Positions 3,176 through 24,556 of a DNA stretch of 25,521 nucleotides are shown piece by piece. Source of the stretch: a virus; the IMG/VR virus record IMGVR_UViG_3300024518_005604, positions 1-25,521 of that record, one strand, 5' to 3'. Positions within the stretch are counted from its first letter, which is position 1. Each line of letters begins with the position of its first letter. Below the pieces are notes generated by a model, which searched no databases, was not told the origin of the DNA, and worked only from the letters and a program-made list of their open reading frames with translations. Both the position numbers and the translations under genes were made by a program.

Positions 3176-4579
3176 TTAATTGTTATTATTGTAAGATACA
3201 CAGTCCTCTGCGGTTGCCGTGCTTGCGTTAAAATCCATCACATTTTTGAAAAAATATCTGCTCATATACATCAGAGGATCTACCCAATCATCATCTTCTT
3301 TGATAGCATCTTCTTTTTGATCGGTTCCGGATCTATTGGTCTTGTAGCGGTATATCGGGATCGTCCGAATAAGATCTGCACATCGCGGGTGTATAAGAAG
3401 ATCAGGCACATTGTGTGCATCTGGCATCATTAGCCGATTCAAAATTGATCTATTTAGTTCTCTGTCTTTTTGAGCCGGATCTGTCCAAATTCCGTAGTTT
3501 TCCAATTCAATTCGCGTCTGCCTCTCATGGTCACACAATCGGGTTTCTATTGGTCGATTGAATCTCGCGTCCCCCGAAAAATAAGAAATATCAGATTCTC
3601 TCTTGATGATTTCTTTGGCATGGATTTTTAGGAGTGTGTCAGTTGCCGAATATTCATCCCAAATATATAATTTTCCATCATGTTCGCCACCGAAAAGAGC
3701 AACGAAAGGATGCCGGGCTCCCAAATCAATACTTGTCACTTTTCGGATATTGACGGGGAGATTCTCGAAATGAGATGATTGTGCGCTCAGATCTTCTCTC
3801 CACTCCTTGAATACCGCGCCTGATAAAATCGTAAATAATCCATAAAATCTTCTTTCGATCTCATCTTTTGACATCCTCCCTTTTGCCTTCTCCTTTTGAT
3901 TAGTAGTGATATACTTGTTGTCCAGTAAGCTCACTGTCCATCTCGCGATGTCAGGATCGGGGGATTTATCGGCTCTATTTTGAGCATTGTAAAGATAAAT
4001 TCTTTGGTACATCCAATTTTTGCCCAATACGGGAGTCGCCCCCCCTAAGATGTAGCCATCACAATCAATGATGCGAGATAGACAATCGTTGTAAGTTTGT
4101 TCGGCGGCTGCCGACACCCTTTGTCCATCTTCATCTAATTGAATGATTGGTACGGAATCGGCAGAAAAACTTCCCGGCCCTGATTTCCACGTTTTATATT
4201 CTATTTTGCCCCCACATTGTAATTTTATAAATCGTGGGATTTCCTCTGTGACTCGCCAGTTGATATGCTTTATTTCCCAATTTGCTAAAAATTCTTTATG
4301 CCATCGCCAAATGGCTGATAATTTATCCTCCGTGAGTCCAACCGCCCAATAAAGCTTCCCTGGCAATTCCCTGATTTTGCTTATAAAGTCATAAGATACC
4401 GTTCCAGTCTTGCCCGCACGATCCCCCCCGAATAGAAATTTGATATGTTTTTTGCTTTGGTGGAAATCAGTAGCTTGTGTACTTGCAGGATTATAATTAG
4501 GATATGTCAATGAGTGCGGGATAATATTGGCGAAATGAAAATCACGTTTTTTTGCGCATAGCCGTCTCTTAGTGAGCAT
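3176..4579 (-). CDS. terL: Terminase large subunit
   Basis: The packaging motor that pumps DNA into the prohead and cuts it. From the ATG at 4579 it is 467 residues. Walker A is FGGDRAGKT (about residues 50-58 in this numbering), Walker B is VPIIQLDED about 90 residues later, and GGATP about 30 residues further is the coupling motif. The nuclease half shows TSIDLG with its Asp, then FSGDARF, and a final acidic cluster DDDWVDP, as expected for the RNase H-like fold. The frame also extends to a TTG at 4594, but the -10 box of a strong promoter lies on that extension, leaving the ATG as a leaderless start. The gene points away from the portal, and no small subunit gene is adjacent. The following virion gene starts 20 bases after its stop. 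Confidence 0.95.
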   Translation of the reverse strand: MLTKRRLCAKKRDFHFANIIPHSLTYPNYNPASTQATDFHQSKKHIKFLFGGDRAGKTGTVSYDFISKIRELPGKLYWAVGLTEDKLSAIWRWHKEFLANWEIKHINWRVTEEIPRFIKLQCGGKIEYKTWKSGPGSFSADSVPIIQLDEDGQRVSAAAEQTYNDCLSRIIDCDGYILGGATPVLGKNWMYQRIYLYNAQNRADKSPDPDIARWTVSLLDNKYITTNQKEKAKGRMSKDEIERRFYGLFTILSGAVFKEWREDLSAQSSHFENLPVNIRKVTSIDLGARHPFVALFGGEHDGKLYIWDEYSATDTLLKIHAKEIIKRESDISYFSGDARFNRPIETRLCDHERQTRIELENYGIWTDPAQKDRELNRSILNRLMMPDAHNVPDLLIHPRCADLIRTIPIYRYKTNRSGTDQKEDAIKEDDDWVDPLMYMSRYFFKNVMDFNASTATAEDCVSYNNNN

Positions 4580-4585
4580 AATGAT

Positions 4586-4614
4586 AATATACAAGAGTTC
4601 CCTTTTTTTGTCAA
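4586..4614 (-). promoter_or_regulatory. Strong terminase promoter, leaderless layout
   Basis: On the minus strand TTGACA (4614-4609), 17 bases, TATATT (4591-4586), then six bases and the ATG of terminase at 4579. Transcription starting about seven bases after the -10 box would begin at the ATG itself, so the mRNA would have no leader. Confidence 0.8.
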
Positions 4615-4662
4615 ATTTTATCTAAAATGATAAAAACTTATTGACAAATAATAAATTTTATC
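4613..4662. promoter_or_regulatory. Shared operator-like repeats between terminase and portal promoters
   Basis: AAATTTTATC occurs at 4613-4622 and again at 4653-4662, 40 bases apart (about four helical turns). The first copy also forms an inverted repeat with GATAAAA at 4629-4635 around a six-base spacer. One direct repeat touches the terminase -35 box and the other lies in the portal promoter spacer, so a single regulator could control both. Confidence 0.5.
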
Positions 4663-4669
4663 GTATATT
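4641..4669 (+). promoter_or_regulatory. Strong portal/head promoter, leaderless layout
   Basis: TTGACA (4641-4646), a 17-base spacer, TATATT (4664-4669), then six bases to the portal ATG at 4676. It has the same geometry and the same boxes as the divergent terminase promoter, and no Shine-Dalgarno sequence can fit between the start of transcription and the ATG. Confidence 0.8.
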
Positions 4670-4675
4670 TTCAAT

Positions 4676-6562
4676 ATGCCCGACAGGATAACGCAAGCAG
4701 ATAAAAAACGACTCACGAGACCCATCCTCTTTGACCCCTATGGCAGAGCGATTGACAGACAAGGGGGATGGGGAATTGATCATCTGCCTCACAATCCTGA
4801 CACCACTGATACTGATACAATCTTCGATATTTCTCAAAATCCCTATATTAAGGCAGGCTTGCAGTTCCGAGCCATACACTATCTATGGGTTTCTGCTGGC
4901 GGGTTGACGCAAAACAATGATGGGGTTGATTTCCCTGCGCAGCTTATTTGGCAGACAGCAGGCGACAAGAGTGATGAGCAGTATAATCTGCTTGCATATC
5001 AATACGATCAAAACTTCCGAGGGGGTTTTGGGGAAATATTGAAATCTTTAGAAGATCCCTGCAAAACGTATGGACGGGCTATTGGTGAAATTGATTATGA
5101 AAAAAAATTATATGGTGAATTCGCAGGCAAAATCCTCTCACCTTTTATCCATTCACGAGACCCTGAAGAATTTATCTTTGATCCAGCCGACGAAAAGCCC
5201 GGATTGTATCGAAAGGGTATGTATGGGGTTTTAAACCGTGTCGATCAAAATAAGTTCATCGCATTTCAGTACAACCCACTTTTTAATAATCCCTACGGGG
5301 AATCTATCAATCTCCCTCTTAAGCCCTGGGTTGAGACTTTTAACAAAATTTTCGGATATTGGCGACATGCTCTGGAAAAAGCGGGGCTTGGCTCATGGGT
5401 TGCCAAATATGGAAGGGAGGCAAGCGGGAATGATAATAGAGCAAAACAATTAAGAGAGCTTATTTTGTCTCAGGTCAAGGCCATCGCAGGCGGGACAGCT
5501 TCCATCTTCCCACAAGGGACTGAATTAGAAAATTATAAACTTCAGATGGATGCGCAAGCGTTTTTGGACTGGTACCAGAGTTTCATAAAAACCGTTTCTG
5601 TCATTTATACGGGCAACGCGGGAACATTCGGAGAGGAAGCTTTTGGATCTAAGGCCGCCAAAGAATCCACAAGTGTCCGGCAAGAGTCGCAGCTTGAACT
5701 CTCTGACTCAATGCTCATTAATCATCATTGGGATCAGTTTAATCGTCGTATTTTAGGACTTAATTTTCACCCGGAAAAAATAAAAGCAATTCCGCAACTT
5801 TGGATCATTTCGCCCGCGTATTTCACACCAACAACGCCAGCGGATCAGGAGCCGACAGACCAGGAGCCGACAGACCAGGAGCCTCCTGAAATGATGGCAG
5901 AATTACAAGATGAAAAAGATGGTATTTCGCAAGATTTCCCACGCGAGACGCCAACCCCTGAACCATATCAGGCCAAAAACATTATAGAGGCTGCTGAATT
6001 GTATCTATCAGAGATGCCTGTCAAACAGTATCAAGATTTTGTTGAGAGCGATGGGGGAAAAGTCTTTACCATCAAGGGACAACCGGGATTTATCCCATCC
6101 CTTACATTACTGGAAAGTCTCAAGGCTGAGATTATTCCTACCCTCAAATTAGATAGCGAAGGTGACGCATGGCAAGCATACGTAGCAACAGCAAAAGATA
6201 TTTTGGAGGACAATGGTATTCAGACGACAGAGATTCTGTTGAGAGATTTGAGCATTTCCTTCAGGCAAGCGCGTCAAACTGCGTTCTCGCGGGGGCTTAT
6301 CAATTTTGGCGTATCAGATAATGCGGCTGGTATCAGAATAAAAAATCTAAAAGACGGGCATATCATACGATTTATACACAAACAATGGGATGGGGTAGTT
6401 TTGGCTATGGGGGATCATCGCATTGAAACCGTTTTGCCGCCATCAGATTTCGGATGTGTTTGCTTTGCGGAATTGGTATATGATATTAATGCGTTGACCC
6501 CTGAAAATGAAATCCCAGTTCTTTTACCAGGGGAATCTTATAAACTTTATGCAGATGAATAA
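4676..6562 (+). CDS. Portal protein (DUF935-like) fused to a MuF-like domain
   Basis: A 628-residue two-domain protein. Residues about 1-385 fit the Mu gp29/DUF935 portal family: NPYGESI, the following KPWVETFNKIFGYWRHALEKAG segment in pieces, and a C-terminal portal region around GEEAFGSKAAKESTSVR. The portal forms the dodecameric DNA gate of the head and docks terminase. A linker of tandem DQEPT repeats (residues 390-403) leads to a helical domain ending in LPPSDFGCVC (587-596), a degenerate form of the P-x-H-x-x-C-x-C signature of MuF/gp30 head-morphogenesis proteins. In Mu these are two genes; here they are one frame. The ATG lies six bases after a -10 box, so it is probably translated without a leader. 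It overlaps the next gene by eight bases or more. Confidence 0.85.
   Translation: MPDRITQADKKRLTRPILFDPYGRAIDRQGGWGIDHLPHNPDTTDTDTIFDISQNPYIKAGLQFRAIHYLWVSAGGLTQNNDGVDFPAQLIWQTAGDKSDEQYNLLAYQYDQNFRGGFGEILKSLEDPCKTYGRAIGEIDYEKKLYGEFAGKILSPFIHSRDPEEFIFDPADEKPGLYRKGMYGVLNRVDQNKFIAFQYNPLFNNPYGESINLPLKPWVETFNKIFGYWRHALEKAGLGSWVAKYGREASGNDNRAKQLRELILSQVKAIAGGTASIFPQGTELENYKLQMDAQAFLDWYQSFIKTVSVIYTGNAGTFGEEAFGSKAAKESTSVRQESQLELSDSMLINHHWDQFNRRILGLNFHPEKIKAIPQLWIISPAYFTPTTPADQEPTDQEPTDQEPPEMMAELQDEKDGISQDFPRETPTPEPYQAKNIIEAAELYLSEMPVKQYQDFVESDGGKVFTIKGQPGFIPSLTLLESLKAEIIPTLKLDSEGDAWQAYVATAKDILEDNGIQTTEILLRDLSISFRQARQTAFSRGLINFGVSDNAAGIRIKNLKDGHIIRFIHKQWDGVVLAMGDHRIETVLPPSDFGCVCFAELVYDINALTPENEIPVLLPGESYKLYADE
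5843..5884 (+). repeat. Tandem 15-bp repeat encoding a DQEPT linker
   Basis: GATCAGGAGCCGACA, GACCAGGAGCCGACA and a partial GACCAGGAGCC follow each other in frame, encoding DQEPT-DQEPT-DQEP between the portal and MuF-like domains. Near-identity at the DNA level suggests recent slippage expansion, so linker length may vary between relatives. Confidence 0.9.
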
Positions 6563-7724
6563 AAACATGATTGAAATGGCAAGCATCATAAATGTTCCTG
6601 TTTTGACATCGGGGATTTTCCCAAGCAGTAATGCGGGGGAAATCGAGATTACGGAAGCTGACCTTGACGAAATCATTGAGGGATCTAATCTTCTCCAACC
6701 CCTCATTAAAACAGCGATTAAAACGGGAATTTATGAAGGCAATCCTGATGTCACAGAATTTATGCACAATCGAGGTAAGCCTATTTCAGGGTTGCTCAAT
6801 CTGAACCATCAAAAAACGCTCAAAGACCAGGTGAAAAATGCTGTATCTGATGTCACCGTCACTTTTGCGAAGGCTGTTATTGATGGGAAAAACTGGATTG
6901 TCAAGAGTTTTGAAAATGTTCCGAATGATGTTGCCGAAACTATAAAAAATCAATTTCAAAAGCGTTCCGTTGAGTTGTTATCTCTCAAAGATCCTAACAC
7001 GGGGAAACTTTGGCCCCACATAATCACAGCGACGGCATTTTTGGACAAACTCACCAGACCGGCAGTCTCAGGACAGTCTACAGATTTAATCGTTGAATTT
7101 ATGACGGATGAAAGCCCTTTAGTTGTGTTCATGATTGATCAACCATTTCAGGAGGAAAGCAATATGCCCGAAAAGACAGAAGAATTGGTAGTACTACAGG
7201 AGATGAAGCTTAATATCATTAAGCAAGACTCAAAAATCGTTGAGCAAGCCTCAAAAATCGTTGAGTTGGAGGGAATGGTAAGAGAAGCGAATTCGGCATC
7301 CGTAAAGAAGGATGAAATGATCATTAAACTTAAGGAAAAACAAGATGCTGTCGTAGTAACTCAAACTCTTGCTGAATTGTCCAGAATCCGCCAACATGAA
7401 GGGAAAGCTTACCAAGTAAGCCCGGCAGCCCTTGAAATTATTCATCCAATCATTGTAAAAGATGGAATTTTTGAGCTCGCTGAAGGCGAAACTGGACGTT
7501 CAAAGTGTGCAGAAGTTTTTAACTCCTTATTTGAAATGTCCTTAGCAGATAATCTGTTCGTATCCTTGTCGACACAAGGACAGAGCTCATTTGCACAACC
7601 AGATGCGAAGCCAAAAACGATGGCACAACGGGTGAATGAACTCGTTGAATCAGGGAAAAACATTTACGACGCCTCTCTACAGGCAGAAGCAGAGGGCTGT
7701 CAAGATATTTTGGAGGTAGCATAA
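6555..7724 (+). CDS. Prohead protease-scaffold protein (Mu gpI-like)
   Basis: A 389-residue protein between portal and capsid cement, the position of the Mu-type protease with C-terminal scaffold. The N-terminal domain (about residues 1-195) contains ITEADLDEIIEGSN, GLLNLNHQ and LWPHIITATAFLDKL, consistent with a herpes-type assemblin protease (a His and a Ser are present, but I cannot assign the triad). The C-terminal half has a coiled coil with a repeated SKIVE unit (IIKQDSKIVEQASKIVELEG) and then a helical tail, as in scaffolds. The start is uncertain: ATG at 6555 overlaps the portal stop (ATGAATAA), while 6549 and 6507 are also in frame and none has a strong ribosome binding site. A second start at 7164 probably yields free scaffold. 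Confidence 0.75.
   Translation: MNKNMIEMASIINVPVLTSGIFPSSNAGEIEITEADLDEIIEGSNLLQPLIKTAIKTGIYEGNPDVTEFMHNRGKPISGLLNLNHQKTLKDQVKNAVSDVTVTFAKAVIDGKNWIVKSFENVPNDVAETIKNQFQKRSVELLSLKDPNTGKLWPHIITATAFLDKLTRPAVSGQSTDLIVEFMTDESPLVVFMIDQPFQEESNMPEKTEELVVLQEMKLNIIKQDSKIVEQASKIVELEGMVREANSASVKKDEMIIKLKEKQDAVVVTQTLAELSRIRQHEGKAYQVSPAALEIIHPIIVKDGIFELAEGETGRSKCAEVFNSLFEMSLADNLFVSLSTQGQSSFAQPDAKPKTMAQRVNELVESGKNIYDASLQAEAEGCQDILEVA
7164..7724 (+). CDS. Nested scaffold protein from an internal start
   Basis: In frame within the protease gene, ATG 7164 is preceded at good spacing by AGGAGG, far stronger than any ribosome binding site at the gene's own start. It would yield a 186-residue protein that begins MPEKTEELVV and consists of the coiled coil and helical tail. 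Lambda C/Nu3 and Mu gpI/gpZ are known to make scaffold this way: protease plus an excess of the scaffold-only form. Scaffold lines the prohead and is removed before DNA entry. The interpretation rests on the ribosome binding site and domain boundary. Confidence 0.7.
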   Translation: MPEKTEELVVLQEMKLNIIKQDSKIVEQASKIVELEGMVREANSASVKKDEMIIKLKEKQDAVVVTQTLAELSRIRQHEGKAYQVSPAALEIIHPIIVKDGIFELAEGETGRSKCAEVFNSLFEMSLADNLFVSLSTQGQSSFAQPDAKPKTMAQRVNELVESGKNIYDASLQAEAEGCQDILEVA

Positions 7725-8107
7725 TGGCAAATTTAAGAGGATGGAAAGTTGATAGTAACACTAATATCGTCGCAACGTTTACGGAAGATATAGCTCCCGG
7801 ATTGGTCGTCAAATGGTCTTCTGATTCTATCGCCATCGCAGGTGCAGGTGATGTTCCTGAAGGGGTATGTTTTACAGCCGTTGATATTTCTGAGAATGAT
7901 GAAGGCGCGTTCATGACGTCAGGTGTTGCCAAAAGCGTATGTGCATCGGCTGTAACCGATTTAGCCCTGCCTCTTAAACCTGCGGCAGCGGGGACGGTGA
8001 CGCCGGCCACAACGACACTTGACGCTTGTATCGGGTGGCCTTTAAATCTCGCTGCGATTGGTGAGGAAGTTGCCTATCGTGTCCAAAAACTTTATTACGT
8101 AGTGTAG
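7724..8107 (+). CDS. Capsid cement/decoration protein (DUF2190-like)
   Basis: A 127-residue, beta-rich small protein immediately before the major capsid gene, where Mu-like phages keep DUF2190 cement proteins. It shows the family pattern: an early GLVVKW turn, PEGVCFTAVDISENDEGAFMTSG in pieces, and a glycine/alanine-rich middle followed by AACIGWPL-like and YRVQKLYYVV ends. Such trimers clamp the expanded capsid lattice. Its ATG overlaps the protease stop (TAATG) and follows GGAGG, so it is translated at high level and coupled. No catalytic residues are expected. The assignment depends on pattern and position. Confidence 0.75.
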   Translation: MANLRGWKVDSNTNIVATFTEDIAPGLVVKWSSDSIAIAGAGDVPEGVCFTAVDISENDEGAFMTSGVAKSVCASAVTDLALPLKPAAAGTVTPATTTLDACIGWPLNLAAIGEEVAYRVQKLYYVV

Positions 8108-8117
8108 GAGGTAAATC

Positions 8118-9119
8118 ATGCCGAACGCTTATGGAGCAACACCCTTTATTTATCGACCTGTAATGTCTCAATTGAGCTTTGCAGATGTTGACCCACTTTA
8201 TCTATCTGAGAGAAATCTTGCATTTCCTCCGATGGAAGTCAATGCCGAAACCGCTACATATTTCAAACACGATCTACAAGCCGCTTATGAACAAAAAGAG
8301 AACAAGTCTACAAAGTTCTCAACGCCTGAAAGTCACAACACAAGTGATGAATCGGCGACGTTCAGTATTCAGGCGATTTCGGACGCTTTTGAATTCTCGA
8401 ACGCTGATCTTTCGCAGGCATTGCAATTATATCACATGAGTCGTCAACAGATGGTTGAAGCTCAAAGATTCTTCACAACGATGCGTCAAAAGAAGGCGAA
8501 AGATCTCGCCTTTGACGCATTCGTTCAGGAGAATACAAATTATGAAAGTGCCTCACAGTATTTCAATGCTGGGGTGGCTTGGAGTAATGTAGGCTTATCT
8601 GATCCACTTGCAGACATCGAAGCAGCAAAAATCATCCAACCCAGGATTGATTCAATGATTATCAATAATACAATCCTGAGCTTTTTGAGACAAAATCAAA
8701 CTATCCAGGCCCGGACAACCATTACAAGTGAGAGTTTAGGTTCTCGTGTCGATCCATCGATCAATGTCGAATATCTGAAAAATTATTTCGGATTAAACAA
8801 TATCCACCTGATCAATGGTGAGGTGGAAACCAATTCAGCCGATCCTGCTGATACGTCTTTAGTGGACATCTGGACACCATCGGCTTTTCTGTATCAATCG
8901 ACACAACCATCTCAAAATAACCTCATGCAGGGGGCTTTCATGAAGCACATTTTTTGGAGACCTGAAAACATTGGCGAACCGGGAGAAGGATGGGCATGGA
9001 TTGAGAAGATGAAAGAAGGTGGTGTGGCTGGTGTCACAAAGTGGGAACTTTGGAACCATTACTCTTATCATAGTCACGATCCTCGCTTGGCTGTGCGGAT
9101 TGATGCTGTCGTTGTTTAA
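8118..9119 (+). CDS. Major capsid protein
   Basis: A 333-residue protein with the strongest translation signals in the window (TAGGAGG before ATG) and located after protease and cement genes. The N-terminal 100 residues are helical and polar, as in the N-arm and E-loop region; the middle has the helical P-domain spine (LSQALQLYHMSRQQMVEAQ); YLKNYFGLNNIHLINGEV (from about residue 219) matches the A-domain strand-helix typical of HK97-fold coat proteins. The C-terminal part ends in HDPRLAVRIDAVVV, a common capsid ending. There is no fused delta domain, so scaffold is supplied separately from the upstream gene. It would form the icosahedral shell. Confidence 0.85.
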   Translation: MPNAYGATPFIYRPVMSQLSFADVDPLYLSERNLAFPPMEVNAETATYFKHDLQAAYEQKENKSTKFSTPESHNTSDESATFSIQAISDAFEFSNADLSQALQLYHMSRQQMVEAQRFFTTMRQKKAKDLAFDAFVQENTNYESASQYFNAGVAWSNVGLSDPLADIEAAKIIQPRIDSMIINNTILSFLRQNQTIQARTTITSESLGSRVDPSINVEYLKNYFGLNNIHLINGEVETNSADPADTSLVDIWTPSAFLYQSTQPSQNNLMQGAFMKHIFWRPENIGEPGEGWAWIEKMKEGGVAGVTKWELWNHYSYHSHDPRLAVRIDAVVV

Positions 9120-9133
9120 GGAGGAGAATAAAT

Positions 9134-9337
9134 ATGTCCACCCAAAAGAAGACCGCTAAAAAAGACGTGATTATCATGAATATGATGTTAACTGATGGCT
9201 CTAAGCATGTTGTCACAGGGGACAACATGCTTGAAGTGTTGTCGTCGTCTGAGAGAATTTGTAAGGAACGAGGTTTAAATTTCAAAAACAAACAACATCT
9301 TGTAAGTTGGGAGAGGAGTCAAAATAATGAAAAATAA
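9134..9337 (+). CDS. Small basic hypothetical protein in the head module
   Basis: A 67-residue protein with an AAGGAGG ribosome binding site at good distance. It has a lysine-rich start (MSTQKKTAKKD), a predicted beta segment (VIIMNMMLTDGSKHVVTG), and a basic helical C-terminus (ERICKERGLNFKNKQ). It overlaps the next gene by 11 bases, so the two are likely coupled. No family is recognised. Its place between the capsid and connector genes suggests a minor head component or an accessory to the secreted-looking protein that follows. Confidence 0.65.
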   Translation: MSTQKKTAKKDVIIMNMMLTDGSKHVVTGDNMLEVLSSSERICKERGLNFKNKQHLVSWERSQNNEK

Positions 9338-9803
9338 AGTCCTAATCTCAGTCTTTTTTATTTCCGTTATGCTGTTGTCGGTTGTATTTTTTACGCCAGC
9401 CGCTCAACTGGTTTCTCAGATTCAAATTCCGGCATTTTTAGCGGGGGTATCGTCTAACAATGCCGGAACTGACACATTGAGAGTTGCAATTGTGTCTCAG
9501 GTTGGGGTTCAGGTATATACGCAGGCCACAATCCAGGGTGACGATGTGACCCCGGATATTTCAGGGGCATACTGGCTTACAACCTCAGCCAATGCAGGGG
9601 CAACAGCGATCACTGATTTAGACGGAGCAGTTTCAGGGCAGTCTCTCTGTATCATTGGAGGGAGTGCGACCTTTAGCAGCACAATAGCCGATTCAGGAAA
9701 TTTTGCATTGTCAGCGGCTTGGACTGCCGGTCTTGATGATGTGCTGTGTCTCTATGTACAAGCGGATAATGATTACATAGAAGTCAGTAGGGCAGACAAT
9801 TAA
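9327..9803 (+). CDS. Secreted beta-rich protein within the head module
   Basis: A 158-residue protein with a textbook signal peptide: MKNK, a hydrophobic core (VLISVFFISVMLLSVVFF) and a TPAAQ cleavage-like region near residues 24-28. The mature part is Gly, Ala, Ser and Thr rich with alternating beta pattern (ISGAYWLTTSANAGATAIT, then SCF-less turns, DNDYIEVSRADN at the end), and two or three cysteines. AGGAG lies eight bases before the ATG. Structural genes on either side encode cytoplasmic virion parts, so an exported product here is out of place. It might be an infection-stage surface or exclusion protein, or a virion protein whose N-terminus is a membrane anchor. No family is recognised. 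Confidence 0.7.
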   Translation: MKNKVLISVFFISVMLLSVVFFTPAAQLVSQIQIPAFLAGVSSNNAGTDTLRVAIVSQVGVQVYTQATIQGDDVTPDISGAYWLTTSANAGATAITDLDGAVSGQSLCIIGGSATFSSTIADSGNFALSAAWTAGLDDVLCLYVQADNDYIEVSRADN

Positions 9804-9805
9804 AA

Positions 9806-10300
9806 ATGGCAACATATAGTACACAGACAAGCGTAGAGGCTCGTATTTCAGCAACGCGCCTCACTGCCCTCACTGATTTTGATGGGGACACGATAGCAGA
9901 TCCGGCGACTATCGCAGCAGGGATAGCATTTGCGGGGGGGTTTATAGCTGGGAAACTCAAGCAGAGATATGGTCAAGACACCCTTGACTTGTGGTTGCTC
10001 CCTGATGATGTTCCCCCCCTTATCGCTTGGATTTCTGATACGTTGTGTATATGGGATTACAACATCAATAAGCCGGGATTATTCCCTGATGTGGAATCAA
10101 TTTTTAATTCTGCTCATGCAATGCTGATAGACTTGGCAGAGGGGACTATGGATCTTGATGATGTTAACATCCCAACGGGTACGGAATTTCAGACAGAAGC
10201 AGCAACCTCTGATTTTGAGGCAGGTGCATGTCCACAGGATGCAAGTGTCAAGCCGACATGGATTCTGCCCGATCCACGAGAAGAAACATGGCTGATATAG
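9806..10300 (+). CDS. Head-tail connector (DUF1320, Mu gp36-like)
   Basis: A 164-residue protein with the pattern of the DUF1320 family: a short N-terminal helix with ISATRLTALTDFDGDTIADPATI, then helices with AGGFIAGKLKQRYG, the RYG/RYP motif of the family, and PPLIAWISDTLCIWDY. In Mu-like heads gp36 forms part of the ring under the portal that joins head and tail. It begins two bases after the previous stop, without a good ribosome binding site, so coupling is likely. The last 45 residues are acidic and probably disordered. It overlaps the next gene by 13 bases. Confidence 0.75.
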   Translation: MATYSTQTSVEARISATRLTALTDFDGDTIADPATIAAGIAFAGGFIAGKLKQRYGQDTLDLWLLPDDVPPLIAWISDTLCIWDYNINKPGLFPDVESIFNSAHAMLIDLAEGTMDLDDVNIPTGTEFQTEAATSDFEAGACPQDASVKPTWILPDPREETWLI

Positions 10301-10749
10301 GGCGCGAGCTATTAGCAGCAATCGAAGCGATACTTATTACAGAGACGGCTTCAGGTGAGAGCTTGGAAGCCATAAAGTCTTTTTTCGTCCTATATTCCTC
10401 ATCTGAGTCTCCGCCCGAATACGCCACAGTTCCGCCAGTACTGAAGGTTGACATGCTTCCTATCATCGGTAAAACGATTACTTGTATCCCCCACATGATA
10501 GAAAAAGAATATCCGATCCGGTTTTCGTTCTGGAACGAAAACCAGGGGGAAACAAGGGATCAAACAGCAGCAATCATTTTAGACGCAGTTGAGGATATTT
10601 TTATTAATAATCGTATGGGAGTCTCCCAGACTGTCGATGCTCCTCAAAAAGATTATTCAATACCATCATCACCCCCGTTCGAGGCTCCTGTTAATGGGGG
10701 TTGGACAATGACGATCACTCACCGAGATGTTGACGTGAGAGCAAAATAG
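10288..10749 (+). CDS. Tail terminator/completion-like protein (Mu gp37-like)
   Basis: A 153-residue protein from ATG 10288, preceded by GAGAAG; a longer frame from 10228 would run inside the connector gene. It has an N-terminal helix (IGRELLAAIEAILI), a central region with a GKTITCIPHM beta strand, a segment PIRFSFWNENQGETRDQTAAIILDAVEDIFINN typical of tail-terminator proteins (a strand followed by a helix; quoted in pieces of the motif), and a C-terminal WTMTITHRDVDV strand. By position between the DUF1320 connector and the tail tube gene it should be the ring capping the tail tube. The family is inferred from order and secondary-structure pattern. Confidence 0.6.
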   Translation: MADIGRELLAAIEAILITETASGESLEAIKSFFVLYSSSESPPEYATVPPVLKVDMLPIIGKTITCIPHMIEKEYPIRFSFWNENQGETRDQTAAIILDAVEDIFINNRMGVSQTVDAPQKDYSIPSSPPFEAPVNGGWTMTITHRDVDVRAK

Positions 10750-10759
10750 GAGACAAATA

Positions 10760-12142
10760 ATGGCAGAAACTTTAACAGCTTTTCAAAACACAAAACAGGC
10801 TTTTATTGAAGAAACTACATTCGGAGTAGCTGCCACAGAGACGGCAGCCGGGGCGTTCCCATTGTCTGTTGATGGAAATGAGTTTAATCTTGAACGTGAA
10901 TTGCTTGAAGATCCGACCATTTCTGGCTCATTTTCAAAGCCTCCATCTCTACCAGGGATGTACTCAGAAGACATTGGCCCCACAGTCTCCACCCCATTGC
11001 GAGGCATCGGAACATTGTCAGAACCCGCATGGGCGGTCTTAATGAAGAGTATTATGGGGGCACAGGTAGAGGGGAGTGACGGAATATGTGGTTTAGGGTG
11101 TACTACAAGCGTGATACAAGTCAAGTCAGGGGCGGGCGATCTCGTCGCGGGGCAATTGATTTATTTCACCACACAAGACGAAATCCGTGCCATTGTGTCT
11201 GAGGCGGCAGGTGTGATCACCCTGGACATTCCACTCATAAGCACCCCTGCTGAAGATGATACGTTTCTTGCAGGCATCAATTTCATGCTGGCAAGCTCAG
11301 GGCACCCGAGTTTTACGTCCTACACGCATTTTGAGGGAGATAAAAGGATAGTCTACGCCGGATGTTTAGCAACTCAGATGACTTTGGAAATGGCTGTAGG
11401 GCAAATTGTCCCACTTACATTTGTTAACAAAGGCACCGTTGAGCCGGTGACGGATTATACCGCGCAAGTTGTAACCCCAATAATAGATACGATAACCAAA
11501 CCCATCAGGTGCCAAGGGACTACCGTATTTTCAAGATTTTCCGGGGTGGCTTCGGGAACACCAACCACCACAGAGACAATAATAACTACACCATCCTATG
11601 AGATCGCGATAGGTGATAAGATTCAGATCGATGTAGGGGCGGGGGTTTTTGAGACTGTTTTAATCACAAGCGTTTCAGGGGATGCTCTGACAAATACCAC
11701 ATTAGGACATGATGCTGTTTCGGTTGCCGCTTCAGGTGGGGACACGGTGTTTGTGTTAAGGATCGGATGCTCAAATAATCTTGGGGATACGATTGAGTTA
11801 ACAATTGAGATGGAAGACGAAACGGAAAAATGTATTTCTGCCACCTCCGGTTTTTCTGGACGCAAACCCCTCAATCGGACAGTGACATTTACGCCAACCC
11901 CGTATTTCAAAAGTTGGCAGGACTTACTGTTACGGGATGGAAGCATCGGGAGTGCATTACAGATAATTTTGGCCGATCTCGATGGAAATTATATTTGTGT
12001 GTACATTCGGAATAAAATAAACACAGAATTTTCGTTAGAAACAGACGCTCTTATGCGTACAGGAGTCACGAGTCAGGCGGCTAAAGATAATGTCATGGGC
12101 AATGATCATGAAATTGTTCTTGCCGTCTTCCAGACGTCATAA
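10760..12142 (+). CDS. Major tail tube protein with inserted beta-barrel domains
   Basis: A 460-residue protein after the terminator gene and before the tail chaperones, the place of the tail tube subunit. The N-terminal part has the tube pattern (KQAFIEETTFGVAA, then FSKPPSLPGMYSEDIGP, and TPLRGIGTLSEPAW). Two similar small beta domains are inserted, one around AGQLIYFTTQDEIRAIVSE and the other around IAIGDKIQIDVGAGVFETV, each followed by a D/T-rich strand pair. The C-terminal half (ELTIEMEDETEKC, VTFTPTPYFKSW, IVLAVFQTS) completes the tube fold. It is longer than most tube proteins because of the inserts. AGGAG precedes the ATG. No contractile sheath gene is present, which supports a siphovirus-like tail. 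Confidence 0.7.
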   Translation: MAETLTAFQNTKQAFIEETTFGVAATETAAGAFPLSVDGNEFNLERELLEDPTISGSFSKPPSLPGMYSEDIGPTVSTPLRGIGTLSEPAWAVLMKSIMGAQVEGSDGICGLGCTTSVIQVKSGAGDLVAGQLIYFTTQDEIRAIVSEAAGVITLDIPLISTPAEDDTFLAGINFMLASSGHPSFTSYTHFEGDKRIVYAGCLATQMTLEMAVGQIVPLTFVNKGTVEPVTDYTAQVVTPIIDTITKPIRCQGTTVFSRFSGVASGTPTTTETIITTPSYEIAIGDKIQIDVGAGVFETVLITSVSGDALTNTTLGHDAVSVAASGGDTVFVLRIGCSNNLGDTIELTIEMEDETEKCISATSGFSGRKPLNRTVTFTPTPYFKSWQDLLLRDGSIGSALQIILADLDGNYICVYIRNKINTEFSLETDALMRTGVTSQAAKDNVMGNDHEIVLAVFQTS

Positions 12143-12144
12143 TT

Positions 12145-12585
12145 ATGGCATTATTTAATGCGGCTGCGATATTAGCCGATGAAGTTCAGGAAAAAATTAT
12201 CCTCATAGAGGGGTTCAAAACTCAAACTCAAAGCTATGAACTGAATATCATCATAAAAAGTGATAAAAAGATCCGTAGGAAGGCAACTGAAGCAAAGGAG
12301 AAACATAACTCCGTCAAATATCTTGCAAATTTTAGGGGAAATGGGGAAAATAACGCTGAAATAATCCCTACGAATAACCCGACTGGATACTGCTTAGATT
12401 TACTTCCTTCCTGCTTTGTTAGTAGTAATGGTGATGTCTTGGATGAGCATTCTTTGTCAACGCTTCAAGGTCTTGTCGAAAGATTCCCGGCTTTCGCAAA
12501 AGAGCTTGCTTCTAAAATGTTTGAATTTTTTGAATCAGGTGATGTTTTTGACACATCACAGATGGAATCTTATAAAAAAAAATAA
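12145..12585 (+). CDS. Tail assembly chaperone, short form (gpG-like)
   Basis: A 146-residue protein directly after the tail tube gene (two bases between). It has a beta-rich, charged N-terminal half (YELNIIIKSDKKIRRKATE) and a helical C-terminal half (LVERFPAFAKELASKMFEFF). It ends at AAA AAA AAA TAA, a slippery run. In lambda-like tails gpG and its frameshift product gpGT coat the tape measure and recruit tube subunits in the cytoplasm, and neither is in the virion. Position (tube, this gene, tape measure) and the slippery end support the role. There is no clear ribosome binding site; it is probably coupled to the tube gene. Confidence 0.75.
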   Translation: MALFNAAAILADEVQEKIILIEGFKTQTQSYELNIIIKSDKKIRRKATEAKEKHNSVKYLANFRGNGENNAEIIPTNNPTGYCLDLLPSCFVSSNGDVLDEHSLSTLQGLVERFPAFAKELASKMFEFFESGDVFDTSQMESYKKK

Positions 12586-12923
12586 GACGTTATGCAATGT
12601 GGGATGGGGGGGATGAGTGTCAAGAGTGTCATAGGGAGGCACTCATACAAAAGATCCCTCCCCTCAAAATTCCCTCGTGTTGTCAAACATTGCCATGTAG
12701 CAAGCACGGGCATCCCGCATTTCTGCCACCTGAGCTTAACGCATGGCTCGATTTTTTTAATGCAGTAGTTTTGTACAATCACACAGAAAACACGCTTGAC
12801 CATGTACTTATCAGCAAGATTTGTAATGCCTATGGAATAGAGTTTTTAGTAGCTTTTGAGATGCTATCCATTATCAATGATGAGGTTGTACATGCCTATA
12901 GAGGGGTTAAAAAAAGCACGTGA
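12145..12923 (+). CDS. Tail assembly chaperone, -1 frameshift fusion (gpGT-like)
   Basis: A -1 shift on A_AAA_AAA (12576-12582) skips the TAA stop and continues in the frame that ends at 12923, giving a 259-residue fusion: 146 residues of the short form plus 113 residues starting IRRYAMWDGG. The added domain has a CQECH motif and a further CC and C, suggesting a small zinc knuckle, then an all-helical region (LNAWLDFFNAVVLY, IEFLVAFEMLSIINDEVV). The ATG at 12597 in this frame has no ribosome binding site, arguing that the region is reached only by frameshift. In the family a few percent fusion is needed for tail assembly. Confidence 0.75.
12576..12582 (+). promoter_or_regulatory. Programmed -1 frameshift site A_AAA_AAA
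   Basis: Nine consecutive A at the end of the short chaperone gene include the canonical heptamer in the correct frame. Downstream, a G run (12606-12612) can pair with CCCTCCCC (12656-12663) and ATGAGTG (12613-12619) with CACTCAT (12640-12646), forming a large stem-loop that begins 23 bases after the slip site and could stimulate shifting. Confidence 0.7.
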
Positions 12924-13299
12924 CGACATGAGAAAACGGAAGAGATTATTTTCCGGTCAAAATCCTAAGATGTATAACAAAATAGGAGAACAAATAGCCA
13001 GCAGCATTAAAAAAAATATTGATGACGGTGGACGCAATCCTAAATGGCAATCGCGTACAAGGCCATATACTTGGCCTATCCTGAACAAAACATCACGCAT
13101 GAAAAACAGAGCGGAAAGTACAGCCCGTGAATGGATACACACGGCGGGGATGCACATCAATAGGATCTTTTCCCCTCTATATGGAATTTATCACCAGTAC
13201 GGGACATCAAAAATGCCTATCAGAAAATATATAAAACTTATTCCTTCGGAAATCGAACGTGTCAAAAACACCGTCCGAAAGGCGTTTTTGACACCTTAA
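12892..13299 (+). CDS. Virion morphogenesis/tail completion protein (Mu gpG or HK97 gp10-like)
   Basis: A 135-residue protein from ATG 12892, preceded by GAGG at six bases; the longer frame from 12856 lacks a signal. Its pattern fits the phage virion morphogenesis family: a basic N-terminal helix (LKKARDDMRKRKRLF), a helix ending SIKKNIDDGG, the PKWQSRTRP loop with W and aromatic residues, and the conserved YGIYHQYGTSKMPIRKYI segment, which corresponds to the H-x-x-G-x-x-x-x-P-x-R end motif. These proteins join tail to head. It overlaps the end of the frameshift domain by 32 bases and lies between chaperone and tape measure, an unusual but compact position for this family. Confidence 0.75.
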   Translation: MPIEGLKKARDDMRKRKRLFSGQNPKMYNKIGEQIASSIKKNIDDGGRNPKWQSRTRPYTWPILNKTSRMKNRAESTAREWIHTAGMHINRIFSPLYGIYHQYGTSKMPIRKYIKLIPSEIERVKNTVRKAFLTP

Positions 13300-13305
13300 G
13301 GAACT

Positions 13306-15951
13306 ATGGCAACTACAACGGATACTCTTATTTTTGAGATAAAAGTTGATGATGACGCGGAGGCTGTATTTTCCGCTTGGGATAAGCACTTTGAGAGCCT
13401 GTTGAAAAGCTCAAAAGAACTTGATAAGATCCTCTTGATTATGTCGAAAACATTGCAAAGAATAGGAGCTACGGGTTCTCAGGTTTTTAGCGATCTGCAA
13501 AAGACAGTTACCGATCTTGCCCCCAAAATTAAAACTGTCAAAGATGCGTTGTCGGTATATGACAAGGCAACCCAGGAGGCAAAGGAAGCAACTAAAAGTT
13601 TGGCATCTCGTATTAAAGATTTTTACGCCAACGAATTACGAAAAATGCGGGATGCTGTTATTGAATCAATAGAATCGTTTGTATCGCTAAAAGAAAATAT
13701 TAAAGGGTTAGGGCGTGCTTTCGAGACAGGGTTTAAAATCGCAACGGCAGCGGTCACTGGTTTTGCGTCACTGGCGTTAGATGCTTTGACGGCTGTGTTT
13801 GACCTTGTGAAAAAAGTCGGTGGAGTACTTGTTGATGAATTTGATAAAGCCTTTAAAAGTTCCGTCTCGTTGGAAGATGCCTTGTCAGGGGCGAAAAGAA
13901 CAGGGAATTTAACGGAAGAGCAAATGACTGATTTAGCTAAATCGGTAAGAGATCTCTCTTCTGTACAATTACAAGGGGCAGTCACAGCCGAAGAATTAGG
14001 CGAAGTTTTAGAAGTCGCCGGGCGACGGGGAATCTTGTCAGGGGAAGATTTTGAGAAATCATCAAGACAAGCCCTTAAATTTACAGAAGATGTTGCGAAA
14101 GCTTCTGTGGCTCTTGATCTTTCCTTCGGAAAAACAGCCGATGCACTCGGTAAAATACAGGGAGCTTTTCCAGGGAGTCAGGCAACCATCGGTCAGTTGG
14201 GAAATGCTTTTAATATTTTAGCCGATTCGACAAGGGCTGCGGCTCCCTCTATGATAGAAATTGCCAAAAGAGCCGCGCCTGCCTTATCCGTATTTAAGCT
14301 ATCACAAGGAGATCTTATCGGATTTTCAGGGGCGATGGATGCTATGGGCGTTTCATCGTTCACGTCAGCAACAGCCCTTCAAAGCGCATTCAAAGCAATG
14401 ACAGGGAGCACAGATGAGTTTGCTACTACATTTGGGATCAATGTGGCAGCATTCAATAAATTGGTTCAAGAGGACATGGGGCAGGCTATGGTGGTCTTTT
14501 TACAACATGTCCAAAAAATGGCAACTGAAACGCCAGGCGGTGTCCAACAAGTATCAGCAGCCTTATCTGAATTGAAAATCTCCGGGGCGGGGGTATCAAC
14601 GGCTATATTGGGTTTAGCAAATTTAGGGACGGAGTTGGAGACAAAATTCTTAAACCCCGCCAATCAAGGCTTGACAAACATGAATTCGATCAATGCTGAA
14701 TTCATAAATTCAATCTCTCGTGTGTCTCAATTATGGCAAGCGTTAGGGACAATCTGGATCAATACCACAGGGCAATTGACTGATGCGATGTTGCCCGCGA
14801 TCAAAAGCTTTCTGAGCGTTGTCAACCAAACTGCAATGGATTTTCAGCAGTGGATCGGAGCTTCCGGGATCGCTGATCAGCTTCGAGCGTCCCTGGAATC
14901 GCTTGTGCAAACTGATATAATCCCTCTGGTGAATCAATTTGTTGAATGGATAAAGACGTCAGAGGCTCTACAAGACTTTTTCATGCATGGGATTCCAGAC
15001 GGGATTGAGTCAGCGAAACTTGCTATTATTAGTCTGATTTCAAAATTTGAAACCTTTACCGGAGCAATTCAGCATGGGATGAGTGTATGGGATTCGCTCG
15101 TGATGGTATTTCCAAAATTGAAACAGGCAGAAAATATTCTCCTTGATATTGTTGCAGCGATCAAGGAAGTTATGGGCTGGGTTGAAAAAGCTGGGGGGGC
15201 GGTTGATATTTTTCGGATCGCCTGGGAGACTATCCGCGACACTGCATCAGACATCGGAAGTGTTTTTGAGCCTTTTTTTGACATGCTGGTTTCTGGGTTT
15301 GAAACGTCAAAGACCGCGATACAGGGCTTTATTGAAATAGCACAAGGGTTATCTAAGATCTTTACAAGCCCTCTTGACAGCATTCAAAAGTTAGGCAGTG
15401 GAATCGAAAATGTCTTTTCCTCACTGGTTAAATTTGTGAATGACTCGATAGGTGCGGTGGGCAAGCTTGCAAGCGCAATTGGAAGCATTGTTGGCAAATT
15501 AAAAGATGTCGGGCAGGAAGCTTTCGGGAATAGTACTTTTCCTGATATGCAAGAGTGGATCGGAAAAAATATTGGGGCTGTTTCAAACCTCAATTCGGGA
15601 TTTGGTGCTTCAGTGTCCGCGTTGTCGGCGGTAGCGAAAGCCGGGAAAAATACGGGTCAAACCCTTTCCAACATGAACAGTCAAAGACTTGCCATTAGCC
15701 AATCTAATCTCCCCTCATCAATCAGGAAAGAACTACTTCAAGCTACACAACAACAAGCTACACAACAGCAGTTCAACACGAATCAAATTACAGGTCAATC
15801 CGCGCAGGACACGCAGAGACGCAGCCAGGCTGCGGGGGCAACAATTGTTTTCCAAGGGCAAAACATTGTGAACGACGCATCGCGGCAGCAATATATCAGA
15901 GAAACCAACAAAGGACTACAAAAACTCGAGCGAATGTCGATCCAAGGGTAA
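13306..15951 (+). CDS. Tail tape measure protein
   Basis: The largest helical protein of the tail module, 881 residues. It sets tail length and is ejected with the DNA. The N-terminal 110 residues are helical and charged; residues about 140-180 (FKIATAAVTGFASLALDAL and onward) are hydrophobic enough to insert in a membrane; residues about 185-460 resemble the TP901-1-type tape measure core (LSGEDFEKSSRQAL, GKIQGAFPGSQ, MGVSSFTSATALQSAFKAM). The C-terminal 70 residues are Gln and Asn rich (QQATQQQFNTNQITGQ). By the usual 1.5 angstrom per residue rule the tail would be about 130 nm, which is an inference. No lysozyme or peptidase motif was seen. AAGGA precedes the ATG. Confidence 0.85.
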   Translation: MATTTDTLIFEIKVDDDAEAVFSAWDKHFESLLKSSKELDKILLIMSKTLQRIGATGSQVFSDLQKTVTDLAPKIKTVKDALSVYDKATQEAKEATKSLASRIKDFYANELRKMRDAVIESIESFVSLKENIKGLGRAFETGFKIATAAVTGFASLALDALTAVFDLVKKVGGVLVDEFDKAFKSSVSLEDALSGAKRTGNLTEEQMTDLAKSVRDLSSVQLQGAVTAEELGEVLEVAGRRGILSGEDFEKSSRQALKFTEDVAKASVALDLSFGKTADALGKIQGAFPGSQATIGQLGNAFNILADSTRAAAPSMIEIAKRAAPALSVFKLSQGDLIGFSGAMDAMGVSSFTSATALQSAFKAMTGSTDEFATTFGINVAAFNKLVQEDMGQAMVVFLQHVQKMATETPGGVQQVSAALSELKISGAGVSTAILGLANLGTELETKFLNPANQGLTNMNSINAEFINSISRVSQLWQALGTIWINTTGQLTDAMLPAIKSFLSVVNQTAMDFQQWIGASGIADQLRASLESLVQTDIIPLVNQFVEWIKTSEALQDFFMHGIPDGIESAKLAIISLISKFETFTGAIQHGMSVWDSLVMVFPKLKQAENILLDIVAAIKEVMGWVEKAGGAVDIFRIAWETIRDTASDIGSVFEPFFDMLVSGFETSKTAIQGFIEIAQGLSKIFTSPLDSIQKLGSGIENVFSSLVKFVNDSIGAVGKLASAIGSIVGKLKDVGQEAFGNSTFPDMQEWIGKNIGAVSNLNSGFGASVSALSAVAKAGKNTGQTLSNMNSQRLAISQSNLPSSIRKELLQATQQQATQQQFNTNQITGQSAQDTQRRSQAAGATIVFQGQNIVNDASRQQYIRETNKGLQKLERMSIQG

Positions 15952-15956
15952 TTTCT

Positions 15957-17036
15957 ATGTATGGAACTCTAAAATTCTTATATGAGAATTTAGCTGAATC
16001 CGCAACAATTACGCTGTCATCCCAGGCCAACGGCAAATATAGTTACGCGGCAAAAGAGGGCAAGGGTGTCGCCTCTATGACTGTGGGAGGTGTGTATTCC
16101 GGCACAAACGACAGAACATATCTGGTTGAGTGTGACTCTGTTTCGGCTGGCAGTGAGATCGGTCAGGCGACGGTACGCTGGCGGTCTTCAGATACAGCCG
16201 GGGCATGGGAACAAACAGGGGTGGTCACAATGACAACCCCCGTGACAACGTTAGAGGATGGTTTGACAATTTCGTTTCAAGGAGGCACGGGGACTGATTT
16301 TGTCGTTGGTGATTCCTGGCAATTTTATGTCAAAGCAACTTATGGATTTGAAAGACTGCTTGATCGCAATCGAATGACGGGATGGAAGTCTACGGGAGAC
16401 ACATCGGAAAATATCGTAATAGACGCGGGGGGGGCTGTACAAAAACAAGCTCTAATCTTGCAAGATCACAATTTAACAGCATCGGCTACAGTAATATTTG
16501 AAGAGAATCCCTCTGATTCATGGGGGGCACCATCTTATACTTTCACATTCCCTACAATAACAGATCCGTTGATATTGTATTTCGATGAAATATATCAATA
16601 TTCTCGTATAAATATTGCAGATCCCTCTAATCCTGAAGCGGTGATCCGCATCAACAATTTGTTTTTAGGGACTGTCCTCTCTTTGGAAAGACTCAATGCT
16701 GAATGGGGGAGTTCACAGCAGGAAGGCTACATTTTGCAAAAAAACGAGAGCGAGGCAGGAGTCAGTAGACGCTATAAATATGCCGGTCAACGGACGCTTC
16801 ATCTAAATTTCGGGAATCTCTTAAGTAATGAGGACAAAGACGCTCTTGTCACGATGCAAAACGCTCTTGTTCTCGGTTCACAGGTTGCCCCTCTTTGGTG
16901 CCACCTGTTTTCTGATGAGCAAAGCGCACTCAATCTGATGACTTGGGATAACTTAGGGGAATGGACTTTTGAATATTTTAGGTATCTTCTCAATAGCGGG
17001 GTTGAAATGATTTTAGAGGAGGTTCCGAAGGTATGA
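15957..17036 (+). CDS. Distal tail protein-like, with an inserted beta domain
   Basis: A 359-residue protein immediately after the tape measure, where the distal tail (Dit) or baseplate-hub adaptor is usually encoded. Residues about 30-120 form a beta domain (GGVYSGTNDRTYLVECD, then RWRSSDTAGAWEQTG, ending GDSWQFYV) like those inserted in many phage tail proteins. The remainder includes a segment IVIDAGGAVQKQALIL, a sandwich region and DEQSALNLMTWDNLGEWTFEYF, consistent with a Dit-type ring. It would form the ring at the tube tip and hold the hub encoded next. Its stop overlaps the hub start as ATGA. The role is inferred mainly from order. Confidence 0.6.
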   Translation: MYGTLKFLYENLAESATITLSSQANGKYSYAAKEGKGVASMTVGGVYSGTNDRTYLVECDSVSAGSEIGQATVRWRSSDTAGAWEQTGVVTMTTPVTTLEDGLTISFQGGTGTDFVVGDSWQFYVKATYGFERLLDRNRMTGWKSTGDTSENIVIDAGGAVQKQALILQDHNLTASATVIFEENPSDSWGAPSYTFTFPTITDPLILYFDEIYQYSRINIADPSNPEAVIRINNLFLGTVLSLERLNAEWGSSQQEGYILQKNESEAGVSRRYKYAGQRTLHLNFGNLLSNEDKDALVTMQNALVLGSQVAPLWCHLFSDEQSALNLMTWDNLGEWTFEYFRYLLNSGVEMILEEVPKV

Positions 17037-20000
17037 GACGTTTCTCAGAAACATACAATGCTGCAAGAATGCGAGGCGACAAACCTTTTATTTTGGCATT
17101 CGTTTTTTCAAATCTTGGATGCCATGTGGTCGGTAAGGAGACGCCAACGGGAGACCATGTTACAGGAACACCATACAATATTATAGATTGGTCAGCGCGG
17201 GTTCTCTCATTCGGCACATTTCGGAAATCGTTATCTGAGAATTCAAATAATATCCTGCAAACTCTATCACAAACGGAAATGTCAAGCTATACTCTCACTT
17301 GTGACAATGCCGATGAATACTTTACTAATTTATTGGCGAGAGAAGAATTAATCGGACAACAATTGTTAATTTTTCAGGGGTATTTTGACTCATCTTTTGC
17401 TGATCTTCAGCCACTTTTTAACGGGATCATCCAAAGCGTAGAAATGTCAACGCTCTCTATCCAAATATCGGCGAATCAGGCTGTAAAAAACACCGAACCG
17501 GATGATCCAACCATTAATACAGAAACACTCTACTCAATGCGGAATCCAGGGATAGGAAATACTGGGGCTGAAGAAAGTTTTACCTATGCTGAACTTCAGG
17601 ATGCGTTTTATACCGAAGACTATTGGGTTCTCACGACAACTTTTGTCGTTGATGATCTTGGAGTTGATCAACACATCCTTGAAATCGAAAATGATGCCTA
17701 TGGAAATACACGGCTTCTTGTCGGCCTCGACAGTGATAACCATCCCTACATCTATTGGAATAGTGCCAGCCCATCGGCTCCACAAGACCTCAGAGCGATC
17801 ACTTTTGATGGCATTACCATCAATCAACAAGAACTCTCACAACTTACTTTCACGATGGATCCCGCGAGTGCTTCAATCACCTGTAGGGATTTCTACCTGA
17901 ATTCAGATGTACAACCCCTCCCCGCGTTACTTACTTTTAATTCAAAATATGGATCGCCTGGTTCAGGAAATGATAATTTAGATGATCCAACAGGGATTGT
18001 AATTTTAAATAATTTTTTGTATATTTGCGATTTTGGAAATAATCGTATCGTAAAAAGAGATACAGATCTTAATTTTGTAGCTCTCTATAATTTGACTGAT
18101 TTTACGGGTCAACTCCCGATAGATATCTGTACTGATGGTGATTATTTTTATGTGTATGAAGTTTATGAAGACACAATCAACAAAGTCAATATTGCTAAAT
18201 ACACTTTGACATTTACTTTGGTTGATAGCGTGTATCTTTTTGATGGGGTTACAGGGGGAGGAATTTGTACTGATGGTACTTTTCTTTATACCGCTGATAA
18301 CAATAATGATAAAATTCGGAAACATAATACATCCTTGACTTTTATAGATGATGTGGGAAGTTTTGGGAGTGGGGATGATCAATTTAATGCACCATTTGGC
18401 GTTGATACAGACGGGGTACATCTGTACATTGCAGATAGCGTAAACGACAGGGTAAACGTTCGAGATTTAGATCTTATTTTTGTCAAAAATATCAACATTG
18501 CAACAACGCCAGGCAATCTAATAAAGCAAATTAAATTGGCTCCCCTTTTTTTCTATGGTGGGTTTTCAACAGAGATAAGATATATCGGATATACAGGTCA
18601 AGAGTTGTATGAGTTTGGGACATCAGGGTCAGGTGATGGGCAATTCCAGGGAGTGCAAGGTATCGCCCTTGACAGCAACAATAAATTATACATTTGTGAT
18701 ACTGGAAATGATAGGATTCAAAAATTTAACCAAGATGTTTCTTTGATGAATACAGATGATGAAGGAAATGATACCTTAATAATCGGGAAAGACTTTGGAG
18801 GGGGGGGCTTGGGCGATGGTGGTGGAATTTACAAAATTATCACATCAACCCTTGCCGGAATACCTCTGTCCATTTTCCAAAATATTGATAACGACAATCT
18901 TTTAACAGATTTCCCTGAATTGATACAAGGGCTTGACACGGCTCTTGTTGATGGGGTATGGGAGGAATTCGGAGAAATTGAGGAAATAATAAGTACAACA
19001 TCAGTTGAAGATGGAGTCGAGGCTCTCACGGAGATTATCATGCCCACTGCCGGGAGATATGCTGATCCAGGTGAAAATCAACAAAATGTCAATCTGCCTC
19101 TCGTCTACGGAGATATGACCGAAAATTCCGATGAAGCCGTCTGGACTGCGCCAGGGATAGATACAGTCAATTTTGTTTATTGCGTTTCGGGGTGGCCTCT
19201 CCTATCGGTTGCTAATGGGAATGTCGTTACCGTTTACGTTGATGGTGTAGAAACGCCATCAGGTTGGGTTTTTGACGAATCCAATGACTATGAAAGTCAA
19301 GGAAACATTGCGATCCTTGACTTTGCCTCAGACCCTGGCGGTGTGGTGACTGTGAGATGTAAAGGAAAAGATGATGGGGGAACATTAATCACGAATCCGA
19401 TCTCGGTCATTGACGATTTCCTTGATTATGTTGCGACATTGCTTGATGTCACGTGGCAAAAAGGGCAGCGTTCCTTTTCTGACGCGACCAATGCGGCTGA
19501 TCAGAATGGCTATACCTGCGCCGGGATTATCCTATCAAATAATACATTAGGATATTGGCTGCAAAATATCCTCAATTCTTTTTTGGGATGGTTCAATTTT
19601 GCGGAGGATGGGACACTTGATGTATATTTGCGTCCACTGTCCATTACCCCGAAAATTGTTGAAGAAGTGCAAGAATATAATGCCATACATTACGATATTC
19701 AAAAATCAATCGCAAATGTGTGTAATCGGCTTATTATTGATTATGCGTTATCATCAGCCGACGTGGACAGACGATTTAAAAATAATGCCCTGACTTCCTA
19801 TTTCCGAACGGCTGATGAAGTGTCAGAAGGCCAAAGCGTAGGGATTTATGGGGATCGAAAATGGTCATTAGCTTTCGATTGGACACGCAACACAGCCACC
19901 GTTGACACAATTATAGCCGCGATTTTTGACTTTTATCGTTTTCCTGATTGGATACTCAACTATTCAGGCCAAGACACAAAATTTCTTATTTTAGATCTTT

Positions 20001-20874: not shown

Positions 20875-20882
20875 GAGATCTT

Positions 20883-21554: not shown

Positions 21555-21562
21555 GAGGCTCT

Positions 21563-22375: not shown

Positions 22376-22377
22376 AA

Positions 22378-22800: not shown

Positions 22801-22821
22801 TGGGTTCACCACGTTAAAAAA

Positions 22822-22855
22822 ATTTGACTCAAATGGATCAAAACCATGCTAAATT
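22822..22855 (+). promoter_or_regulatory. Possible internal promoter with palindromic operator
   Basis: TTGACT (22824-22829) is embedded in a perfect 13-base odd palindrome ATTTGACTCAAAT (22822-22834). An extended -10 (TGCTAAATT, 22847-22855) follows, though the 20-base spacer is long. GGGGGAA and the ATG at 22865 come next. It lies in the only gap over 60 bases within the plus-strand run. Confidence 0.35.
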
Positions 22856-22864
22856 GGGGGAAAC

Positions 22865-23336: not shown

Positions 23337-23342
23337 GAAATA

Positions 23343-23756: not shown

Positions 23757-23757
23757 C

Positions 23758-24129: not shown

Positions 24130-24143
24130 TTTAAAATCTCCCT

Positions 24144-24160
24144 CCGTCTGTTCTTTAAAT
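24144..24160 (-). repeat. 17-bp copy of the methyltransferase LKNRR region
   Basis: CCGTCTGTTCTTTAAAT here is identical to 24763-24779, which encodes the LKNRR motif near the end of the methyltransferase gene. On the minus strand this copy also reads DLKNRRREIL in one frame, in the same orientation, so it may be a degenerate fragment of a methyltransferase tail. Confidence 0.5.
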
Positions 24161-24172
24161 CTTTCCTGGTCA

Positions 24173-24183: not shown

Positions 24184-24184
24184 T

Positions 24185-24511: not shown

Positions 24512-24556
24512 TCTGTTTTGTTGGCATTATTCGACATCATTTTCAACTGCGCCATT

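Follow-up and report, generated by a model that had tools for sequence, protein, structure and literature searches.

The terminase and portal genes of this phage diverge from an intergenic region that carries the same anatomy on both strands, TTGACA, 17 bases, TATATT, six bases and ATG, and the mRNAs of the two genes are probably leaderless, or nearly so, arising from a bidirectional promoter region of the sigma-70 type. The window, that is the whole stretch of DNA that was analysed, is a virus record of 25,521 bases with 42.7% G+C and a phage contig by its IMG/VR class. Features of the region, in window positions, are as follows.

3176..4579, minus strand: terminase large subunit gene (TerL), by its matches to phrog_5653 (E 2.5e-10) and, by tblastn, to 14 phage records of the phage collection at 22-26%.
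4576-4592 and 4663-4679, unstranded: inverted copies of 17 nt with 88% identity, from a repeat comparison.
4586..4614, minus strand: terminase promoter; TTGACA at 4614-4609, 17 bases, TATATT at 4591-4586.
4592..4594, minus strand: rival in-frame TTG start, five codons before the ATG, with a weak Shine-Dalgarno (SD) site, AAGGGA, inside the promoter spacer (-5.3 kcal/mol).
4616..4635, unstranded: small dyad TTTTATC-6-GATAAAA between the -35 boxes, read directly from the sequence.
4641..4669, plus strand: portal promoter; TTGACA at 4641-4646, 17 bases, TATATT at 4664-4669.
4676..6562, plus strand: portal gene, by its matches to Pfam Portal_Mu (E 4.3e-21) and phrog_113 (E 5.7e-12).

The six bases between TATATT and ATG are ATCATT on the terminase side (4585-4580, ATG at 4579, minus strand) and TTCAAT on the portal side (4670-4675, ATG at 4676, plus strand); a T precedes the A of ATG on both strands. 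The identity of the two arrangements had been claimed in a sequence-only reading, and its coordinates proved exact when checked. The two -35 boxes stand back to back with 26 bases between them. The inverted copies run from the base before the -10 box to the base after the ATG and hold the -10 box, the six bases and the ATG, so the resemblance of the two start segments extends outside the boxes. The dyad between the -35 boxes is a possible regulator site, and may also be a chance product of A+T-rich DNA; a further copy of TTTTATC lies at 4656-4662.

The profile matches by which the two genes are named are weak to moderate, and the identities are offered with moderate confidence; against Pfam Terminase_3, TerL reached 23.0 bits, just below the cut-off of 23.2. 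Counted from the ATG, the invariant Q of TerL is at position 35, and in six relatives it lies at residues 29-43, a position that would fit the ATG at 4579 and also the TTG start five residues longer. Over the first ten codons, codon statistics favoured the portal frame and not the TerL frame. A repressor switch of the lambda or PY54 type was considered and rejected, since the genes match terminase and portal families and not DNA-binding repressors.

On both strands the -10 box places the expected transcription start on the ATG, and neither ATG has an SD site: pairing with the anti-SD sequence was +0.9 kcal/mol at the terminase ATG and +0.6 kcal/mol at the portal ATG, and no SD was found within the 20 bases preceding the latter. 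With no usable SD at either ATG, the two mRNAs are best read as leaderless or nearly so. Across 24 gene-like starts of our own selection, taken from 26 rows after omission of the alternative TTG start and of one whose start was set wrongly, pairing was -7 kcal/mol or better at 13 and weaker than -2 at seven, these seven being terminase, portal and five others. The claim that most other genes here have strong AGGAGG sites is thus only roughly right. At the next genes (7724, 8118, 9134) the SD sites are strong, and several genes downstream of the portal gene have a strong SD of their own. The five other listed starts that lack an SD also lack such a promoter, so the absence of an SD is not diagnostic by itself.

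Under the preferred reading, the host's housekeeping RNA polymerase (sigma-70 type) would read the bidirectional promoter region; each promoter would set the start of transcription on the A of the ATG or at most two or three bases away; and translation would begin by recognition of a 5'-terminal AUG and not by SD pairing. We infer the exact start sites and the leaderless translation, as we do the use of sigma-70, which is an assumption. A different account takes the promoters as real and places the start of the main transcripts further upstream, or gives them a short leader; terminase would then be translated from the TTG at 4594 with AAGGGA, and portal from an mRNA that has a leader but no SD. 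The TTG is in frame, its anti-SD pairing reaches -5.3 kcal/mol, and the five other listed starts are likewise without SD; however, AAGGGA sits in the promoter spacer and hence needs a transcript from further upstream, while the sole minus-strand promoter-like site in 3500-6000 is the one at 4614-4586, and the 20 bases ahead of the portal ATG contain no SD. We regard this account as unlikely.

The leaderless reading of both genes was set against a survey of phage promoters in IMG/VR. Two samples were drawn of perfect -35/-10 promoters followed by ATG, with at least 120 stretches per scan; genes with fewer than 60 codons from the ATG were excluded, as were repeats identical in their first 12 residues, giving 156 distinct genes with an ATG within 40 bases. 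Among the matches listed, the ATG lay 0-4 bases after the -10 box in 7 genes, 5-8 in 40, 9-16 in 12 and 17-40 in 97, longer leaders being under-counted since the pattern allowed 0-30 bases. Within the 5-8 class of these listed matches, six bases were found in 20/156 and seven in 12/156. Random sites in the same loci gave 308/3000 at 5-8 bases and no peak. SD-like words at -20..-4, scored regardless of the promoter, so that part of this stretch is the -10 box itself in the 5-8 class, were present among the matches listed in 0/40 genes at 5-8 bases, 1/7 at 0-4, 4/12 at 9-16 and 70/97 at 17-40. The base before the ATG was a pyrimidine in 15 of the 20 six-base genes listed, as at both window sites. 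Leaderless and leadered genes should fall into two classes separated by a trough, as seen here, and leaders of 4 to 14 nt are reported to be lacking in a Lactococcus study (PMC10986495). Of the genes listed whose ATG is at most 40 bases from a perfect sigma-70-type promoter, about a quarter (40/156) are of this type. The earlier prediction of leaderless mRNAs lacking an SD is well supported by the place of each ATG at the expected transcription start, by the lack of SD pairing at either ATG and by the peak of ATGs 6-7 bases after the -10 box in the phage promoters listed.

Divergent pairs were examined for the same geometry. Besides the window, 47 distinct pairs with exact boxes on both sides were found, the two orientations merged. 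In 17/47 at least one of the two sides had an ATG at 5-8 bases, 13 of these 17 falling in one family of 64-65-residue genes, and in 1/47 (L017, 6 and 8 bases) both sides did; none of the 47 was a six/six pair like that of the window. Simple arithmetic from the sampled promoters listed, treating the two sides as independent, predicts six/six spacing in about 2% of pairs and leaderless starts on both sides in about 7%. When a looser second promoter was allowed, 104 stretches that had been picked because one side had six bases were scored on their other side alone, and 18 of them had an ATG at 5-8 bases there too; 13 were left after five with a second frame shorter than 20 codons were dropped, and these represent six gene families, some of the first frames being short or truncated. 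Pairs predicted to be leaderless on both sides therefore recur.

Ten genes with 5-8-base starts were run against PHROGs; three had no named function and the others were as follows.

L034, six bases: TerL (phrog_2, 1.6e-30).
L100, six bases: portal (phrog_156, 3.3e-55).
L023, six bases: gp55-like late sigma gene (phrog_234, 1.3e-62).
L007, six bases: NrdB (PHROGs).
L016, six bases: small DNA-binding protein (PHROGs).
L208, seven bases: primase (PHROGs).
L161, eight bases: DnaB-like (PHROGs).

The terminase gene of L034 (4861-6591) and the portal gene of L100 (4525-6630) each have the six-base geometry. A six-base start after a perfect promoter was also seen at gp55-like late sigma genes in L023, L043, L062, L086, L107 and L222; the profile match (phrog_234) is that of L023 only, and the other five are alike in their first residues. 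Many short phage genes are preceded by a promoter cassette, TTGACA-17-TATATTGTCAATATG, which looks like a repeated leaderless promoter family. The sequence NTCANT before ATG was found at at least 121 sites, including two in the window, with GTCAAT in 111/121 among the matches listed; as a marker of relatives this spacer was rejected, the sites being mostly short frames that begin MKD or MKG.

Two broader proposals bear on these genes. One holds that in some phages the packaging-vertex genes (terminase, portal) stand under paired or single leaderless promoters, with translation independent of SD and both genes timed by a common regulator acting at the dyad between the -35 boxes, L034 and L100 being further cases; we consider it a long shot. 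The other, put forward in the sequence-only reading, sees an adaptation in the two leaderless starts: at times when ribosomes or initiation factors are changed by infection, they would time or balance the synthesis of packaging motor and portal. The type of start is common to both genes while those at 7724, 8118 and 9134 have strong SD sites, and the unrelated TerL of L034 and the unrelated portal of L100 have the same six-base geometry; but starts of this class are not confined to packaging genes, being found at NrdB (L007), at a late sigma gene (L023) and at small DNA-binding proteins (L016), as well as at a primase (seven bases) and a DnaB-like gene (eight), and such a role seems highly improbable.

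Chance was assessed within the window. The string TTGACA-17-TATATT occurs three times in the whole window, whereas 300 dinucleotide shuffles gave a mean of 0.01. The third copy, on the minus strand from 1280, adjoins no listed start, so the six-base ATG geometry is not used at every promoter of the phage. A looser scan of 3500-6000 gave six promoter-like sites and the shuffles a mean of 5.1, which is no excess; only the terminase and portal promoters among the six match the boxes at 11 of 12 positions. That accidental promoter-like boxes in A+T-rich intergenic DNA explain the pair is next to impossible: the number of sites in 3500-6000 is no higher than in shuffles, but exact TTGACA-17-TATATT-6-ATG occurs twice in the whole window and in none of the 300 shuffles. 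Chance spacing was rejected on the shuffle counts and on the distribution of spacings in the phage promoter samples. The assertion that two identical geometries are unlikely by chance holds against random sequence and is weaker against phage promoters, where six bases (20/156) and 5-8 bases (40/156) are frequent among the matches listed.

Relatives spanning the terminase-portal intergenic region were sought in IMG/VR, the phage collection and genome_contigs with TerL, portal, major head protein and DnaB as queries, and none was found. In single-query searches of IMG/VR, TerL gave one match at 27% (L002) and portal one 100% fragment (L003, on contig G001); the major head protein gave G001 again and nothing else. 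This contig (IMG/VR 3300024520_000445) is 99.94% identical to the window over 19,676 bases (5846-25521) and starts inside the portal gene at 5846, so it is without the promoter region. It extends about 6.1 kb beyond the right end of the window, with frames that include a DnaB-like helicase and a winged-helix-like replication protein; in its early-gene region a 79-base stretch occurs twice at 98.7% identity (L004, 3254-3332 and 4842-4920). The phage collection held no match to portal or major head protein, and the matches there to DnaB and the D12 methylase were spread over many unlike phages; among the TerL relatives at 22-26%, TerL and portal lie on one strand in the three records with an annotated portal. 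In genome_contigs TerL had no match, and DnaB had one at 29% in a Bacteroidales MAG, which is of no use for naming a host. An alignment of seven TerL proteins was dropped as a scan query, being too divergent. Elsewhere in the window, a perfect 17-bp inverted repeat (1373-1415, arms 9 apart) surrounds a TTGACT box before a small HTH gene at 1441, and another complementary arm lies at 1296-1310; the repeat is likely an operator for self-repression.

Software for gene calling or expression that relies on an SD would misjudge phage genes of this type, provided that their transcripts are indeed leaderless. The terminase-portal pair is a neat test case for the leaderless expression of structural genes and opens no new mechanism alone.

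Several published systems resemble the pair in part. In the report on phage PY54, as far as its text on these transcripts goes, the cI and cro mRNAs are leaderless and start at the AUG, as mapped by RACE (PMC4488713); like the window genes, these are divergent phage genes with a leaderless mRNA from each AUG, but they are repressor genes and not structural ones, and their starts were mapped by RACE while those in the window are predicted. For the Cluster O mycobacteriophages, the part of the report dealing with PL1/PR2 gives a divergent pair predicted to be leaderless on both sides (PMC4351075), as in the window; these phages are mycobacterial, the text on their pair does not name its two genes, and their large terminase gene lies about 14 kbp from the end and the divergent pair at about 5 kbp. 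TA-led bacterial genes, in the account given in part of PMC3160421, have TANNNT about 10-12 bp upstream of the start codon and are taken as leaderless across bacteria; they share with the window a -10-like box close to the start codon, but belong to bacterial genomes in general, whereas the window is from a phage and has full -35 boxes. A passing remark in the AR9 paper states that phage transcripts are often leaderless (PMC5312081). Kasugamycin is reported to leave leaderless translation uninhibited (PMC5230787). The L034 and L100 loci carry TTGACA-17-TATATT-6-ATG before a terminase gene and a portal gene, respectively; they differ from the window in their protein families (phrog_2, phrog_156), in having one leaderless packaging gene each, and in that TerL and a portal-like or TerL-like neighbour lie on the same strand. 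The predicted leaderless pair described here is a real but recurring phage arrangement and not a new kind of system.
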